Source: an uncultured Bacteroidales bacterium
GTDB lineage: Bacteria; Bacteroidota; Bacteroidia; Bacteroidales; UBA932
Assembly: GCA_945870315.1 (NCBI GenBank)
Contig: CAMBRR010000019.1
Coordinates: forward strand, 1 to 32,243
DNA: 32,243 nt
Direction of reading: 5' to 3'
Positions 28,218 to 32,243 of this stretch are shown piece by piece. Every line of letters begins with the position of its first letter. Positions within the stretch are counted from its first letter, which is position 1. The notes under the pieces were generated by a model. It ran no database searches and was not told where the DNA came from. It worked only from the letters and a program-made list of their open reading frames with translations. Position numbers and translations under genes: made by a program.

Positions 28218-28670
28218 ATGAAAGAAAGGACTTATATCATCAACGGTAACGAATATAAGGTTACAGTCAATTCAGTATCAGGCGACAAGGCCAATGTGAC
28301 TGTCAATGGGACAAGCTATGATGTCCAGATCAAGGATGCACCAGCAGCGGCTCCGGCAGCGGCTGCTCCGGCACCAGTGGCAACTACAACACCGGCTGCA
28401 GCTCCGGCACCAGTGGCACCTGCAACACCTGCAGCAGCCCCAACTCCAGCAGGTTCAGGAAAGGCTGCAACAGCCCCGCTTCCTGGAGTCATTATCGCCA
28501 TCAAGGTCAATGTCGGTGACAGTGTCAAGGCAGGTGACGAAGTTGCCGTTCTGGAGGCAATGAAGATGGAAAACTCCATCGAGGCTCCTGTCAGCGGAAC
28601 AGTCACTGCAATCAATGCAGCAAAAGGTGACTCCGTTCTCGAAGGCGCCCCTATTGTGACTATTGCTTAA
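28218..28670 (+). CDS. mmdC: Biotin carrier subunit
   Basis: A 150-aa protein. N-terminal beta domain (1-38), an Ala/Pro linker (40-86, repeated PAAAPAPVA) that gives the carrier arm freedom, and a C-terminal biotinyl domain with the AMKMEN motif; Lys116 is the biotin site. It carries the carboxyl group from MmdA to the membrane beta subunit. The linker DNA is repetitive (GCTCCGGCACCAGTGGCA-like units), so length variation between strains is likely. Confidence 0.93.
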   Translation: MKERTYIINGNEYKVTVNSVSGDKANVTVNGTSYDVQIKDAPAAAPAAAAPAPVATTTPAAAPAPVAPATPAAAPTPAGSGKAATAPLPGVIIAIKVNVGDSVKAGDEVAVLEAMKMENSIEAPVSGTVTAINAAKGDSVLEGAPIVTIA

Positions 28671-28695
28671 TCTCCTGCACACTAATACCTTACAA

Positions 28696-29838
28696 ATGGA
28701 AACGGTAATTGAAAGTCTGCGAGAATTTCTGGGGTACACGGGCTTTGCGAATATGACCTGGCAACACCTGGTGATGATATGCATCGGCATATTCTTCATC
28801 TTTGTCGCCATCAAGAAAGAGTGGGAGCCCCTGCTTCTGATTCCTATCGGATTCGGAATGATAATCGGCAACATCCCCTTTGTATCTGGATTGAACATAG
28901 GCATATACGAAGAAGGTTCAGTGATGAACATCCTCTACCAGGGAGTTCAGAAAGGATGGTATCCACCATTGATTTTTCTGGGCATAGGAGCGATGACGGA
29001 TTTCTCCGCACTGATATCCCAACCACGTCTTATGCTCATCGGAGCTGCGGCACAGTTCGGTATCTTTGGAGCCTATATCCTAGCGATGGCTATGGGATTC
29101 ACTCCTGCAGAGGCCGGCGCCATCGGAATCATCGGAGGAGCTGACGGTCCTACGGCCATCTTCCTTTCATCAAAGCTGGCTCCGGAACTGATGGGCGCTA
29201 TTGCGGTATCCGCATATTCATACATGGCACTTGTTCCGGTCATCCAGAGGCCGATAATGCTGATGCTCACCACCAAGAAAGAGCGTCTGATCAAAATGGC
29301 TCCTCCTAGGCCGGTAAGTCAGAAGGAGAAGATTATCTTCCCTATTGCAGGTTTCATCCTGACAGCCATGATTGTTCCGTCCGGAATGCCTCTGCTTGGA
29401 ATGTTGTTCTTTGGTAACCTGCTGAAAGAAAGTGGCGTGACTAGGCGCCTTGCAGAGACGGCAAGAGGTCCGCTGATTGATGTGGTGACCATCCTCATCG
29501 GTGTTACAGTAGGATGCTCCACTCAGGCAAATGTCTTCCTTTCCGGAAAGTCTGTAAAGATTTTCCTCCTTGGACTTCTGTCATTCGTAATTGCTACCAT
29601 ATGCGGCGTTCTCTTTGCGAAACTGATGAACCTGTTTGCCAGGGAAGGTCATAAGATCAATCCGCTTATCGGCAATGCCGGAGTGTCCGCAGTGCCAGAC
29701 TCTGCCAGGGTTTCTGAAGTGGTCGGAAGGGAATTCGACAAGAACAACCACCTTCTGATGCACGCAATGGCACCGAATGTTGCTGGAGTCATCGGTTCGG
29801 CAGTCGCCGCCGGTATCCTCCTCAGTTTCCTCGGCTAA
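28696..29838 (+). CDS. mmdB: Na+-translocating decarboxylase beta subunit
   Basis: A 380-aa polytopic membrane protein of the OadB/MmdB/GcdB family. It decarboxylates carboxybiotin and uses the energy to pump Na+ out. Seen: ICIGIFFIFVAIKKEWEPLLLIPIGFG, FLGIGAMTDF, the Na+-site IIGGADGPTAIF (Asp150 in GGADGPT), and STQANVFLSG and NAGVSAVPDSARVS near the end. The frame is open to a TTG inside mmdC, but the family starts at METVIESL, so ATG 28696 is used. Last gene of the operon, with a terminator 22 bp on. Confidence 0.94.
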   Translation: METVIESLREFLGYTGFANMTWQHLVMICIGIFFIFVAIKKEWEPLLLIPIGFGMIIGNIPFVSGLNIGIYEEGSVMNILYQGVQKGWYPPLIFLGIGAMTDFSALISQPRLMLIGAAAQFGIFGAYILAMAMGFTPAEAGAIGIIGGADGPTAIFLSSKLAPELMGAIAVSAYSYMALVPVIQRPIMLMLTTKKERLIKMAPPRPVSQKEKIIFPIAGFILTAMIVPSGMPLLGMLFFGNLLKESGVTRRLAETARGPLIDVVTILIGVTVGCSTQANVFLSGKSVKIFLLGLLSFVIATICGVLFAKLMNLFAREGHKINPLIGNAGVSAVPDSARVSEVVGREFDKNNHLLMHAMAPNVAGVIGSAVAAGILLSFLG

Positions 29839-29979: not shown

Positions 29980-30104
29980 GACGTTTTTCGTTATCCCCAA
30001 CATCCCTCCACGTCATCTGAACGTGCTTCCCCCGATGTCACCCTCCAGCGTCATCCTCAACATGCCTGCCCAATGTGTCTCCCTACGTCATCTCCAGCAA
30101 AGTC
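29980..30104 (+). repeat. Left part of degenerate ~13-bp C-rich tandem array
   Basis: Follows ~80 bp of unassigned sequence (29896-29979). About nine irregular units such as AACATCCCTCC, ACGTCATCTG, ATGTCACCCTCC, AGCGTCATCCTC and AATGTGTCTCCCT; the shared form is roughly AAYGTCAYCCCC. Units vary from 10 to 15 bp, so no reading frame is kept and the open frames here are not taken as genes. It runs directly into repeat copy A. Confidence 0.7.
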
Positions 30105-30247
30105 AAAAATCACCTGCCATGGGAGGCTACCGTCTGTGGCACTCCGGGAGGGTTATGGCTGGCAGGTGCGGGGATTTTGACCGAACCTGCCATAATAACC
30201 GCCCGTAGAATGGACTGGATGGCCACATCGTATGGCAGGTGAATTTT
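30105..30247 (+). repeat. Four-armed palindromic element, copy A (143 bp)
   Basis: Arms: CACCTGCCAT (30111-30120), TATGGCTGGCAGGTG (30154-30168), ACCTGCCATA (30185-30194) and TATGGCAGGTG (30231-30241), in alternating orientation. Outer ends AAAATCACC...GGTGAATTTT pair with each other. The inner arms pair as CGGGAGGGTTATGG.. with ..ATAATAACCGCCCG, and TGTGGC/GCCACA pair between. It interrupts the tandem array. Confidence 0.85.
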
Positions 30248-30612
30248 GGGTTATCGTCCCCATCACCGCGCCTCTGTTGCTGTCTCCAACGTCCCCTCTA
30301 ATGTCACCCCCTCACGCGTTATCGCCAACGTCCATCCTCCAATGTAACCCTTCGACGTTCCTCTCCAATGTCACCCCCCTCAATGCCATCCATCGAATGT
30401 CATCCCCAACGTGCCCCCAAATGTCACCCCTCCAATGTCACCCCTCTCACGTCATCCGCAACCTGCTCCCCCCAAATGTCACCATCGCACGTCATCCCCA
30501 ACGTATCACCCTTCAAAGTCACCCTCAAATGTCTCCCTCAAACGTCACCCCCAAACGTTATCCCCCAAACGTTATCCCCAACATCCCTCCCTACGCCATC
30601 TCCAGCAAAGTC
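30248..30612 (+). repeat. Main degenerate ~13-bp C-rich tandem array
   Basis: About 24 head-to-tail units, for example AATGTCACCCCTCC, AATGTCACCCCTCTC, ACGTCATCCGC, AACGTCACCCCCA and AACGTTATCCCC; consensus near AAYGTCAYCCCCYC, unit length 11-15 bp. G is scarce on this strand. Several overlapping open frames exist only because stop codons are rare in such sequence. The last 24 bp before copy B match the 24 bp before copy A with a single difference. Confidence 0.75.
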
Positions 30613-30755
30613 AAAAATCACCTGCAATAGGCAACAGGCCTCTGTGGCATTGTGCGAGGGTTAAGGCTGGCAGGTGCGGCGATTTTGACCGAACCTGCCA
30701 TAATAACCTCCCGCAGAAATGTTTGCACGGCCACATCGTATGGCAGGTGATTTTT
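30613..30755 (+). repeat. Four-armed palindromic element, copy B (143 bp)
   Basis: Same length and order of arms as copy A: CACCTGCAATA, AAGGCTGGCAGGTG, ACCTGCCATA, TATGGCAGGTG. TGTGGC and GCCACA are kept. It differs from A by many scattered substitutions, mostly between the arms. Its end lies ~100 bp before the transposase ATG. Confidence 0.85.
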
Positions 30756-30792
30756 GACTTATCATTTTTCAGAACATTTATTGACTAAGAAT

Positions 30793-30822
30793 TTGATTCT
30801 GTCGATTATTGTGTTAATTTCG
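30793..30822 (+). promoter_or_regulatory. Promoter of the RAYT transposase gene
   Basis: TTG (30793-30795), 19 bp, TAATTTCG (30815-30822), one mismatch to TAnnTTTG. Leader to the ATG about 30 nt. Lies between copy B and the gene, so the gene appears to have its own host-type promoter. Confidence 0.5.
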
Positions 30823-30855
30823 CAACATATTGCCACTTGAGGCGATGGAACGTGT

Positions 30856-31818
30856 ATGGAGATATGTGACAAAAGACTCAAAAGACTCATAGCGGATCTC
30901 GCTATTGACAAAGTATTCGTAAAGGGACAAGAACTTGTAGTAACGAATTGCTGGCATTTTTATACTGATGGGAGCAGTGTCGATGCTTTATTTTATGATG
31001 CTTCAGACTTCAAGGATGGGATGAACAGGATATATAATGTAGTGTCCGATTCTGATTTGGAGATTCTTGCTTTTTGTTTGATGGATACTCATTTTCATTT
31101 CGTCTTACATGGTGATTATGAAATTTGTAACAGATTTATCCACGAATATATTCGAAGGACATCAATGTATATTCAATCGAAGTATGGCGAAAGAAATAAA
31201 CTTGATTCAATAAAGATTAGCCATCAGGTAATAGATACTGACAGGTATCTTAAAACTGTAATCTGTTATACACTAAAGAATGCTCCAGCAGGAGGACTGC
31301 CATATAACGCATTGGACTATCCTTGGTCAAGCGGACCTCTGATGTTTAGAAAAAAGGATGGATGGGCTGCACCGAGATGGACTCTGGACGATCAGATGAC
31401 ATCAGATAAAATGAGTGTATTAAATCTTCGTTCAAATTTGAGATGCAGGAGTGCATTGCCCAAAAATGTGCGAATGATTGATGGTATTGTTTTTCCCGGA
31501 GAATATGTTGCTTATGACATCGCTGAAAAATGTTTCAAAACACATCGTAGTTTCAATTTCTTTATGTGTAACTCAAAAGAAGGAGATGTTGAAAGCAGAA
31601 GTGGAGAAATATCTCACCTTACAATCCCATTGCAAGAAATGAGGCAGCATAAGAATGATTTATGTATGGAACTGTTCGGCCAAAAACATATTCGTAATCT
31701 TGATACAACTTCAAGACTAAAACTTGCAAGGGTTTTGAAATCGCGTTATAACAGTTCAGATAAGCAGATAGTCAGATTATGTGGACTTATCTATGATGAA
31801 GTGAATCATCTTCTGTAA
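30856..31818 (+). CDS. REP-associated tyrosine transposase-like protein (Y1/HUH, RAYT)
   Basis: A 320-aa protein with an intact Y1-transposase core: HUH motif MDTHFHFVL (His79, His81), RRTSMYIQSKYGER, then the tyrosine segment YLKTVICYTLKNAPAGG, where Tyr138 lines up with the catalytic Tyr115 of E. coli TnpA-REP (Y at four residues before the conserved Asn), and LDYPWSSGPL, another RAYT hallmark. Such enzymes cut and join single-stranded DNA at palindromic repeats. Residues ~185-320 are an extension ending in a helix-turn-helix-like segment (LKSRYNSSDKQIVRLCGL). The gene is AT-richer than its neighbours, suggesting transfer. It is flanked by repeat copies A/B on the left and an orphan arm plus C/D on the right, and no IS ends were found. 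A RAYT acting on these repeats is inferred. Confidence 0.85.
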   Translation: MEICDKRLKRLIADLAIDKVFVKGQELVVTNCWHFYTDGSSVDALFYDASDFKDGMNRIYNVVSDSDLEILAFCLMDTHFHFVLHGDYEICNRFIHEYIRRTSMYIQSKYGERNKLDSIKISHQVIDTDRYLKTVICYTLKNAPAGGLPYNALDYPWSSGPLMFRKKDGWAAPRWTLDDQMTSDKMSVLNLRSNLRCRSALPKNVRMIDGIVFPGEYVAYDIAEKCFKTHRSFNFFMCNSKEGDVESRSGEISHLTIPLQEMRQHKNDLCMELFGQKHIRNLDTTSRLKLARVLKSRYNSSDKQIVRLCGLIYDEVNHLL

Positions 31819-31828
31819 TCAGCTGCAC

Positions 31829-31847
31829 CAAAAATCACCTATCATAA
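31829..31847 (+). repeat. Orphan arm of the palindromic element
   Basis: AAAAATCACCTATCATAAT, 10 bp after the transposase stop, resembles the left end of the 143-bp element (two changes in the arm) but the rest of the element is absent. Confidence 0.5.
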
Positions 31848-31901
31848 TATGAAGATCCTTGGAGCGCTCTGTTCGGGACTGCTATGGGATGCCGTAAGAA
31901 G

Positions 31902-32043
31902 AAAATCACCTGCCATAGGCGGCTGCCTTCTGTGACAGTCTGGGAGGGTTATGGCTGGCAGGTGCGGGAATTTTGACCAAAACTGCCATAGTTACCACCC
32001 GTAGAACTGCCTGTACGGCCTCATCGTATGGCAGGTGAATTTT
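31902..32043 (+). repeat. Four-armed palindromic element, copy C (142 bp)
   Basis: Arms CACCTGCCATA, TATGGCTGGCAGGTG, ACTGCCATA (one base shorter) and TATGGCAGGTG, ends AAAATCACC...GGTGAATTTT. Same orientation as A and B. Its first 54 bp are identical to the visible part of copy D. Confidence 0.85.
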
Positions 32044-32189
32044 GGGTTGGTGCTAATGAGGTGCTTGGGGGCAGGTGATTGCTGGAATGGTGCTTGGGGC
32101 AGGTTGTTATGGCAGGTGATTGTTGGGGTGAGCTGGGGAGGGGTGCTAGGGACTGCAGATATGGCGTGGAGATAACGGGCACCAAGTCG
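32044..32189 (+). repeat. G-rich spacer with stray element arms
   Basis: Between copies C and D the sequence is G/T-rich, the opposite bias to the array left of the transposase gene. It holds two isolated right-type arms, GCAGGTGATTG (32071-32081) and TATGGCAGGTGATTG (32109-32123), and irregular units such as GGTGCTTGGGG. No gene is seen. Confidence 0.5.
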
Positions 32190-32243
32190 AAAATCACCTG
32201 CCATAGGCGGCTGCCTTCTGTGACAGTCTGGGAGGGTTATGGC
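32190..32243 (+). repeat. Four-armed palindromic element, copy D (cut by window edge)
   Basis: First 54 bp of the element, identical to copy C; the window ends inside the second arm. Preceded by CAAGTCG, similar to the CAAAGTC before copies A and B. Confidence 0.85.

Follow-up and report, generated by a model that had tools for sequence, protein, structure and literature searches.

A RAYT-like gene and palindromic elements whose 9-bp motif covaries with three residues of the encoded enzyme in Bacteroidales

Introduction

How RAYT transposases choose and move repetitive extragenic palindromic (REP) elements is an old open question. According to the available text of PMC8266576, in vitro work has covered a few proteobacterial enzymes, and the DNA-binding helix alpha 3 of TnpA-Ec contacts the REP via K82. 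Here we describe a RAYT-like gene among four palindromic elements in a stretch of 32,243 nucleotides (the window; GenBank assembly GCA_945870315.1, contig CAMBRR010000019.1) from an uncultured Bacteroidales bacterium. The nearest described cases, compared by text description, are subclass 2.6 and the TIRtrons. In subclass 2.6 (Bertels group 5) of Bacteroidetes, the accessible text of PMC6006769 reports atypical secondary structures that flank the gene and have copies elsewhere in the genome, and its table gives a median of 179 amino acids and the motifs NH[LIV]H and YIH[QN]NP. In the TIRtrons, as the available text of PMC3733652 describes them, RAYT-like genes (TIRYT) lie between long inverted repeats, some of them repeated and some self-complementary. 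PMC6006769 gives its subclass 2.1, the TIRYT, a DnaA_C/HTH domain at the C-terminus. Among the literature titles and abstracts surveyed, none reports this branch of Bacteroidales RAYTs or the elements linked to it; the survey was limited to openly available text.

The elements carry a 9-bp motif that covaries with residues 104, 189 and 192 of the enzyme encoded beside them. We think it likely that this RAYT-type enzyme recognises the motif, and predict that it cuts near a conserved GAAATTC and spreads its own palindromes as a REPIN-like non-autonomous element. The covariation argues for recognition; cutting and joining are proposed by analogy with the family. The features concerned are the following (R1 is the covariance model of the element, described below):

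30100..30252, + strand: element copy A, 153 bp (R1 102.1 bits, E 1.1e-22; DNA fold z -6.1)
30608..30760, + strand: element copy B, 95 nt upstream of the gene (R1 100.1 bits)
30856..31818, + strand: gene for a RAYT-like HUH/Y1 transposase of 320 amino acids (H79, H81, Y138; putative specificity residues M104, L189, R192)
31165..31167, + strand: M104 codon, in helix 88-110; M or Q at this residue is paired with C at motif position 3 (covariation and held-out test)
31417..31440, + strand: codons of the predicted recognition helix 188-195 (L189, R192), covarying with motif positions 9 and 7
31896..32048, + strand: element copy C, 77 nt downstream of the gene (R1 84.8 bits)
32184..32243, + strand: first 60 bases of element copy D, cut at its 3' end by the contig end (R1 23.1 bits)

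Results

The enzyme has a predicted TnpA-REP fold

The window protein carries THFH at residues 78-81 and Y138 within YTLKN. H79, H81, Y138 and N142 were invariant in an alignment of 89 homologues, in agreement with the intact HUH/Y1 enzyme proposed in a first-pass annotation of the sequence. N142 is followed by A or P and then usually by P; the window protein reads YTLKNAP (compare the class 2 signature Y---NP in the accessible text of PMC6006769). The best fold match of the predicted structure was 4er8, i.e. the TnpA-REP fold. Like RAYT / TnpA-REP of E. coli (subclass 2.2), the protein combines an HUH motif with one catalytic Tyr in a Y1 fold, and its gene is flanked by palindromes with dispersed genome copies. 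It differs in its length, an inserted region near helix 188-195, a C-terminal helical part and the absence of GTAG from the elements. The signatures of the RAYT family studied here, THxH or NHxH and Y-x-x-K-N-A/P, are further differences. In the AlphaFold2 model, residues 189 and 192 lie on helix 188-195, and residue 104 lies on helix 88-110, which follows the HUH motif.

The enzyme is RAYT-like in its predicted fold, and its length, signature and inserted region appear unlike those of the subclasses tabulated in the accessible part of PMC6006769. The homologues have a median length of 320.5 amino acids and motifs other than those of subclass 2.6, a separation made by text description that leaves room for overlap between the elements. 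The signature has Y---N and not the Y---Q of IS200/IS605, and the window genome holds two RAYT genes that are 50% identical to each other (the paralogue is on contig C88), not near-identical copies. Pfam Y1_Tnp and NCBIfam REP_Tyr_transpos matched the window protein below their cut-offs only. It had no match in PHROGs or, by tblastn, among phages and plasmids, and fold comparison of its C-terminal domain gave no convincing match. Weak PDB sequence matches to SRP68 (best E 0.049) were regarded as chance. Three of the 120 homologues listed bear a source name, and all three are annotated 'hypothetical protein'.

The element has a constant geometry and a changing motif

Across the whole window, R1 matched solely copies A, B and C and the truncated D, two on each side of the gene, as first annotated. 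Copy D is partial because the window ends with the contig (C19). The full copies are identical at 123-131 of 153 positions in pairwise comparison, and D matches C at 58 of 60. The palindrome had been given as 143 bp; the full unit is 153 bp, and the four arms described for it are present in the order M-M'-M-M'. Its outer leader reads AACCC or AAGTC, then AAAATC/GAAATTC, and is mirrored at the far end. The leader is followed by the 9-bp motif (here ACCTGCCAT), a complement ending about 56 nt further on, the motif again, and a complement at the far end; in copy A, ACCTGCCAT or a near variant occurs four times in alternating orientation. The conserved tag GAAATTC lies just outside the motif. Two foldings are open to the strand, one long hairpin or two half hairpins. 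Single-strand folding of A and B gave z -6.1, with none of 200 shuffles as good; that of C was weaker (z -2.4, reached by 2 of 200 shuffles). Counting exact matches over the whole genome gave 18 for TATGGCAGGTG versus one for the reversed control. A tandem duplication of the half unit was unsupported, as the halves are less alike in direct orientation (44-48 of 76) than when one is inverted (50-58).

In a genus set of 300 genomes, 244 have a homologue at E <= 1e-10. The homologues split into a close group (about 40-71% identity) and a distant group (about 30%). Of the 82 loci chosen, 57 encode proteins with >=40% identity to that of the window and 25 fall short of this; the 57 include at least one contig present twice from different sources (L034, L062). 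When the flanks were scanned for the four motifs, top scores of 23-27 (of 27) were reached at 43 close loci (of 57) and 6 distant ones (of 25), whereas 164 first-order Markov resamplings peaked at 22. The geometry is fixed, with about 126-130 nt from motif start to end in most loci and halves of about 54-60, and the motif varies by locus (GGAAGCCCA, GCAGCGCAA, ACCGTCCAC, GTTGAGCAC, GGAGGCCAT and others). Fifty-two elements were aligned (alignment A1), and the covariance model R1 was then used to search loci and genomes. In A1, the nested structure pairs 86.3% of cells (covariation 0.722 versus 0.12-0.15 for slid partners) and the two half-hairpins pair 89.7% (0.877 versus 0.12-0.18), percentages that are biased upward because palindromy was used to pick the elements. 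Leader columns 7-13, which lie outside the selection score, are paired in 36 to 49 of the 52 elements. Half-size forms of 79-80 nt were found at L182, L202, L210 (twice), L072 and L075; the half units of the full element measure about 76 nt.

Set against REPINs as the available text of PMC3116915 presents them, the element likewise consists of two inverted halves that fold as one long imperfect hairpin (less stably in copy C), is dispersed and RAYT-linked, and has half-size forms. It is unlike them in its length of about 152 nt, in halves with 9-bp arms some 38 nt apart in place of a short REP stem, in carrying the motif four times, in having GAAATTC instead of GTAG, and in its 5-15 copies per genome examined. 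It lacks a short REP, a 16-mer to about 25 nt, bearing GTAG at both ends. The element is one that works like a REPIN but falls outside the GTAG/short-REP definition in that text. The proposed likeness of CCCGTAGAA to GTAG did not hold up, since 9 of 52 elements contain GTAG where base shuffles predict 22.4, and 2 of 52 have it at the CCCGTAGAA position; the conserved tag is GAAATTC. The GGGGWSAS consensus, reported for several TIRs of TIRYT, was found in 1 of 52 elements, and the available text of PMC3733652 describes no four-motif architecture. Rfam gave no match at the elements of the window locus; its single weak match (mir-14, E 0.51) was below the gathering score and away from any element.

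Gene and element adjoin and co-occur

Of the 57 close loci, 54 had an R1 element no more than 300 nt from the gene, 31 of them on both sides. Among close loci without a row in the model, 17 of 19 had an element near the gene; these 19 include a copy (L062) and a near copy (L064) of training loci. At family level all 27 loci had one, 21 on both sides; comparison of the elements showed five of them to be copies or near copies of training loci, so 22 are new. Distant loci had an element near the gene in 4 of 25 cases. Eleven further loci gave elements at 4 of 4 close and 1 of 7 distant ones. When 20 held-out loci were fetched, 18 gave some R1 match at E <= 0.01, weak or partial only in L254 and L259, and two (L250 and L265) gave none.

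Gene and element also co-occur across genomes. In the genus, R1 hits (E <= 1e-3) were present in 34 of 34 genomes with a best RAYT E <= 1e-60 versus 75 of 266 others, a comparison that is partly circular, as most model rows come from those RAYT-bearing genomes. Among 249 genomes of the family, hits (E <= 1e-6) were found in 40 of 40 with a RAYT at E <= 1e-40 versus 19 of 209. By the A1 row list at most 7 of these 40 supplied model rows, and leaving 7 out the co-occurrence still has p 1e-27. The best 10 or 12 candidates per genome were scored, so element counts for RAYT-negative genomes are lower bounds. The REP/RAYT-like system suggested at first is supported by fold and co-occurrence. The elements are far commoner in RAYT-bearing genomes, and not equally common without the gene; the expectation that they occur only in such genomes needs changing, as some genomes carry them with no close RAYT detected.

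Many genomes have at least seven RAYT-like homologues, the number scored per genome in the genus search. A few distant-clade RAYT-like genes (L096, L101, L272; 31-33% identity) have R1-like elements nearby, and a wider superfamily of gene-element pairs may extend beyond the close clade.

The motif covaries with residues 104, 189 and 192

Elements were considered usable at a length of 148-156 with outer motif copies agreeing at >=6 of 9 positions. By this measure 74 close genes qualified; deduplication at 95% left 64 genes with 59 distinct motifs. The upstream and downstream elements of one gene agree at 8.19 of 9 positions (42 pairs, 41 genes), the motifs of different genes at 3.56. Genome G206 has three RAYTs with three motifs (L035, L073, L074), the two sides matching, in one case with one letter off. 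Motif and protein distance rise together in near relatives only, with 1.4 motif mismatches below 20% protein distance and about 5.3 at 30-40%.

Mutual information with average product correction was computed for 247 variable protein columns and the 9 motif positions. Three residue-position pairs, 189-9, 192-7 and 104-3, scored above the maximum of each of 200 permutations. Of the 64 genes, 30 have R189, and 28 of these have C9 (against 9 of the 34 with another residue); C7 accompanies R192 in 36 of 43 (others 1 of 21), and C3 accompanies R, W or H at 104 in 0 of 27 (others 33 of 37). These associations persist among the 36 genes below 65% identity. They also exceed all 2000 simulations of motif evolution along a FastTree tree (79 genes including 15 held-out, specificity columns removed; two-state model, midpoint root). 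In L032, which is 71% identical to the window protein, L189 is replaced by R and the T at motif position 9 by C, in line with the code.

Held-out loci and genes without the helix

Predictions were recorded ahead of retrieving 20 more loci, of which 17 had been named in advance and 3 were added. We excluded L247 as identical to a training gene, and L250, L259 and L265 as having no usable element. The rule for residue 104 was right in 15 of 16 genes, with M/Q followed by C in 7 of 7 and R/W by non-C in 8 of 8. Five genes without R189 showed no clear C (two ties). The cases are partly dependent: L248, L249 and L252 have 82-90% identity with training genes, one motif type is common to L255 and L257, and four W104 genes fall in one motif group. 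The reading frame of L253 contains a stop.

The stretch bearing helix 188-195 is missing from seven genes, six of which have an element. In four of these, with 7 elements between them, agreement of the outer motif copies is 0.86-1.0 at positions 1-6 and is lost at positions 7, 8 and 9 (0.43, 0.00 and 0.14). Ten held-out genes that keep the helix (15 elements) give 0.80, 0.73 and 0.67 there, and also just 0.73 and 0.67 at positions 1 and 2; the 108 training elements, which were filtered for agreement, give 0.91, 0.88 and 0.83. In the helix-less L270 and L267 (the latter with another motif), position 7 agrees and 8 fails; L267 agrees at 9. An ACGGAT-type motif is common to five of the six helix-less genes with an element, which points to one or two deletion events.

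Copies are dispersed in the genomes

At E <= 1e-6 and with strands merged, R1 matched 13 distinct places in the window genome (G000), 15 in G241, 10 in G216, 13 in G275, 12 in G059 and 5 in G072; at E <= 0.01 the numbers were 13, 18, 14, 15, 12 and 7. They are lower bounds, as part of the candidates was scored in four of the six genomes. Copies exist outside the locus, dispersed as had been expected, in numbers short of the expected tens. They lie mostly in unrelated flanks, and 3 of 55 fall wholly within an open frame of >=200 amino acids.

In the window genome, seven full copies have the window motif or differ by one letter (three on C19, one each on C2, C23 and C25, and C59:1366), two (C88, C86) resemble the motif of the C88 paralogue, and four (C43, C9, C79 and the mixed C59:5866) fit neither RAYT found in the assembly. 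These four elements, with motifs foreign to both RAYTs, are L160, L162, L163 and L164; the motifs on C9 and C79 (ATCGAGCAG/ATTGAGCAG) resemble those of G059, and in C59:5866 two types of motif seem to be combined.

G216 and G241, two related species, have three insertions in common with both flanks shared; a longer search added a fourth. The element G241:C14 is missing from the orthologous intergenic site of G216. Other copies have one flank in common only, or flanks that lie apart in the other species. The solo element on C40 of G241 (L190) has its right flank in common with the sequence beyond the RAYT gene of G216 (C12, L174), and its left flank is found on another contig of G216. In G275, several copies (L194, L195, L198, L200, L201 and L202) share one-sided sequence (about 50-400 nt), as if element and neighbour had moved or recombined together.

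Discussion

We propose that the RAYT probably binds its motif within the stems that the element forms as single-stranded DNA. When the element folds, for example at a replication fork, Y138 would cleave one strand at or near GAAATTC, and the excised strand could be joined elsewhere. A changed specificity residue would make the RAYT favour elements with the matching motif, giving many insulated pairs, among them several in one genome. The covariation suggests physical contact, with residues 104, 189 and 192 each reading the motif stem, and helix 88-110, bearing residue 104, may be the equivalent of TnpA-Ec alpha 3. With somewhat less assurance, we lean towards regarding these as self-diversifying HUH pairs with a readable code, in which helix 88-110 reads position 3 and a removable inserted helix 188-195 reads positions 7-9. 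Substitutions would create private specificities, mutually insulated pairs would coexist in one genome, and changes of a few residues could retarget RAYTs. With 64 related enzymes and 59 motifs, a statistically supported code and a natural helix deletion, specificity becomes testable by single-residue changes.

Several observations weigh against the proposal. Cleavage and movement are taken from the family, and four attempts gave no precise empty site with a target duplication: one locus was shared, one had its flanks apart, one had different content between the flanks, and the edges in the sole presence/absence case (G241:C14) have diverged too far for a target site to be delimited. Shared flanks, one-sided or two-sided, are seen for some copies, and 5-15 copies per genome is low for REPINs. 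The code is imperfect as well. In the held-out genes I104 (L262) was paired with T, contrary to the recorded rule; R189 predicted C9 in 5 of 7 and R192 predicted C7 in 6 of 8, and four genes without R192 gave one C (K192 with C7), one A and two ties. The residue classes were chosen after viewing the first 64 genes, and the way elements were picked inflates the pairing percentages. A Mantel test found protein and motif distance to be weakly correlated (r 0.12, reached by 74 of 5000 permutations), because motifs saturate beyond about 30% protein distance. Finally, elements occur without a detected close RAYT in at least 19 of 209 family and at least 75 of 266 genus genomes. In one of these, G059, a RAYT C-terminus adjoins an element at a contig end, so that missing sequence explains at least part of the exceptions.

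The main rival is a domesticated nuclease that processes palindromes for the host (at replication forks, in supercoiling or at transcript ends) while the elements stay immobile. It fits the few RAYT copies per genome and the low element numbers, and accounts equally well for the recognition covariation. Differing motifs in one genome, nearly one per gene, look instead like independent selfish pairs, and the mostly unrelated flanks and the presence/absence difference between related species also speak against immobility; we regard this rival as unlikely, if a serious contender. Less probable still is that element, RAYT and element form one autonomous transposon, its ends corresponding to the left and right ends of IS200/IS605 and the solo copies being its miniature inverted-repeat transposable elements (MITEs). 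Such a unit would agree with elements on both sides of the gene at 31 of 57 and 21 of 27 loci and with the solo element of G241 that shares its right flank with sequence beyond the G216 RAYT. The RAYT copies, however, are few and diverged (two at 50% identity), unlike an active insertion sequence, many genes have one near element only, and the window has four, two per side. That the elements are MITEs of another transposase or structured RNA signals, the RAYT merely sitting in a repeat-rich spot, we hold to be very improbable. Genomes with elements and no detected close RAYT are what it has in its favour; the residue-motif covariation confirmed on held-out loci, the same motif on both sides of the gene, the co-occurrence and the absence of an Rfam match at the locus all oppose it.

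The host bacteria are known from animal guts, and the relatives of the window genome include gut Bacteroidales.

Other features of the window

Upstream of the locus, positions 28663-29838 match PF03977 with 494 bits and encode an ordinary beta subunit of a Na+-transporting oxaloacetate decarboxylase. The interval from copy A to copy B contains, at positions 30363-30581, a degenerate 13-14-nt minisatellite of the AATGTCACCCC/CGTCATCCCC type. At the RAYT locus on C88 an unrelated 16-nt minisatellite adjoins the element (L013 241-368).
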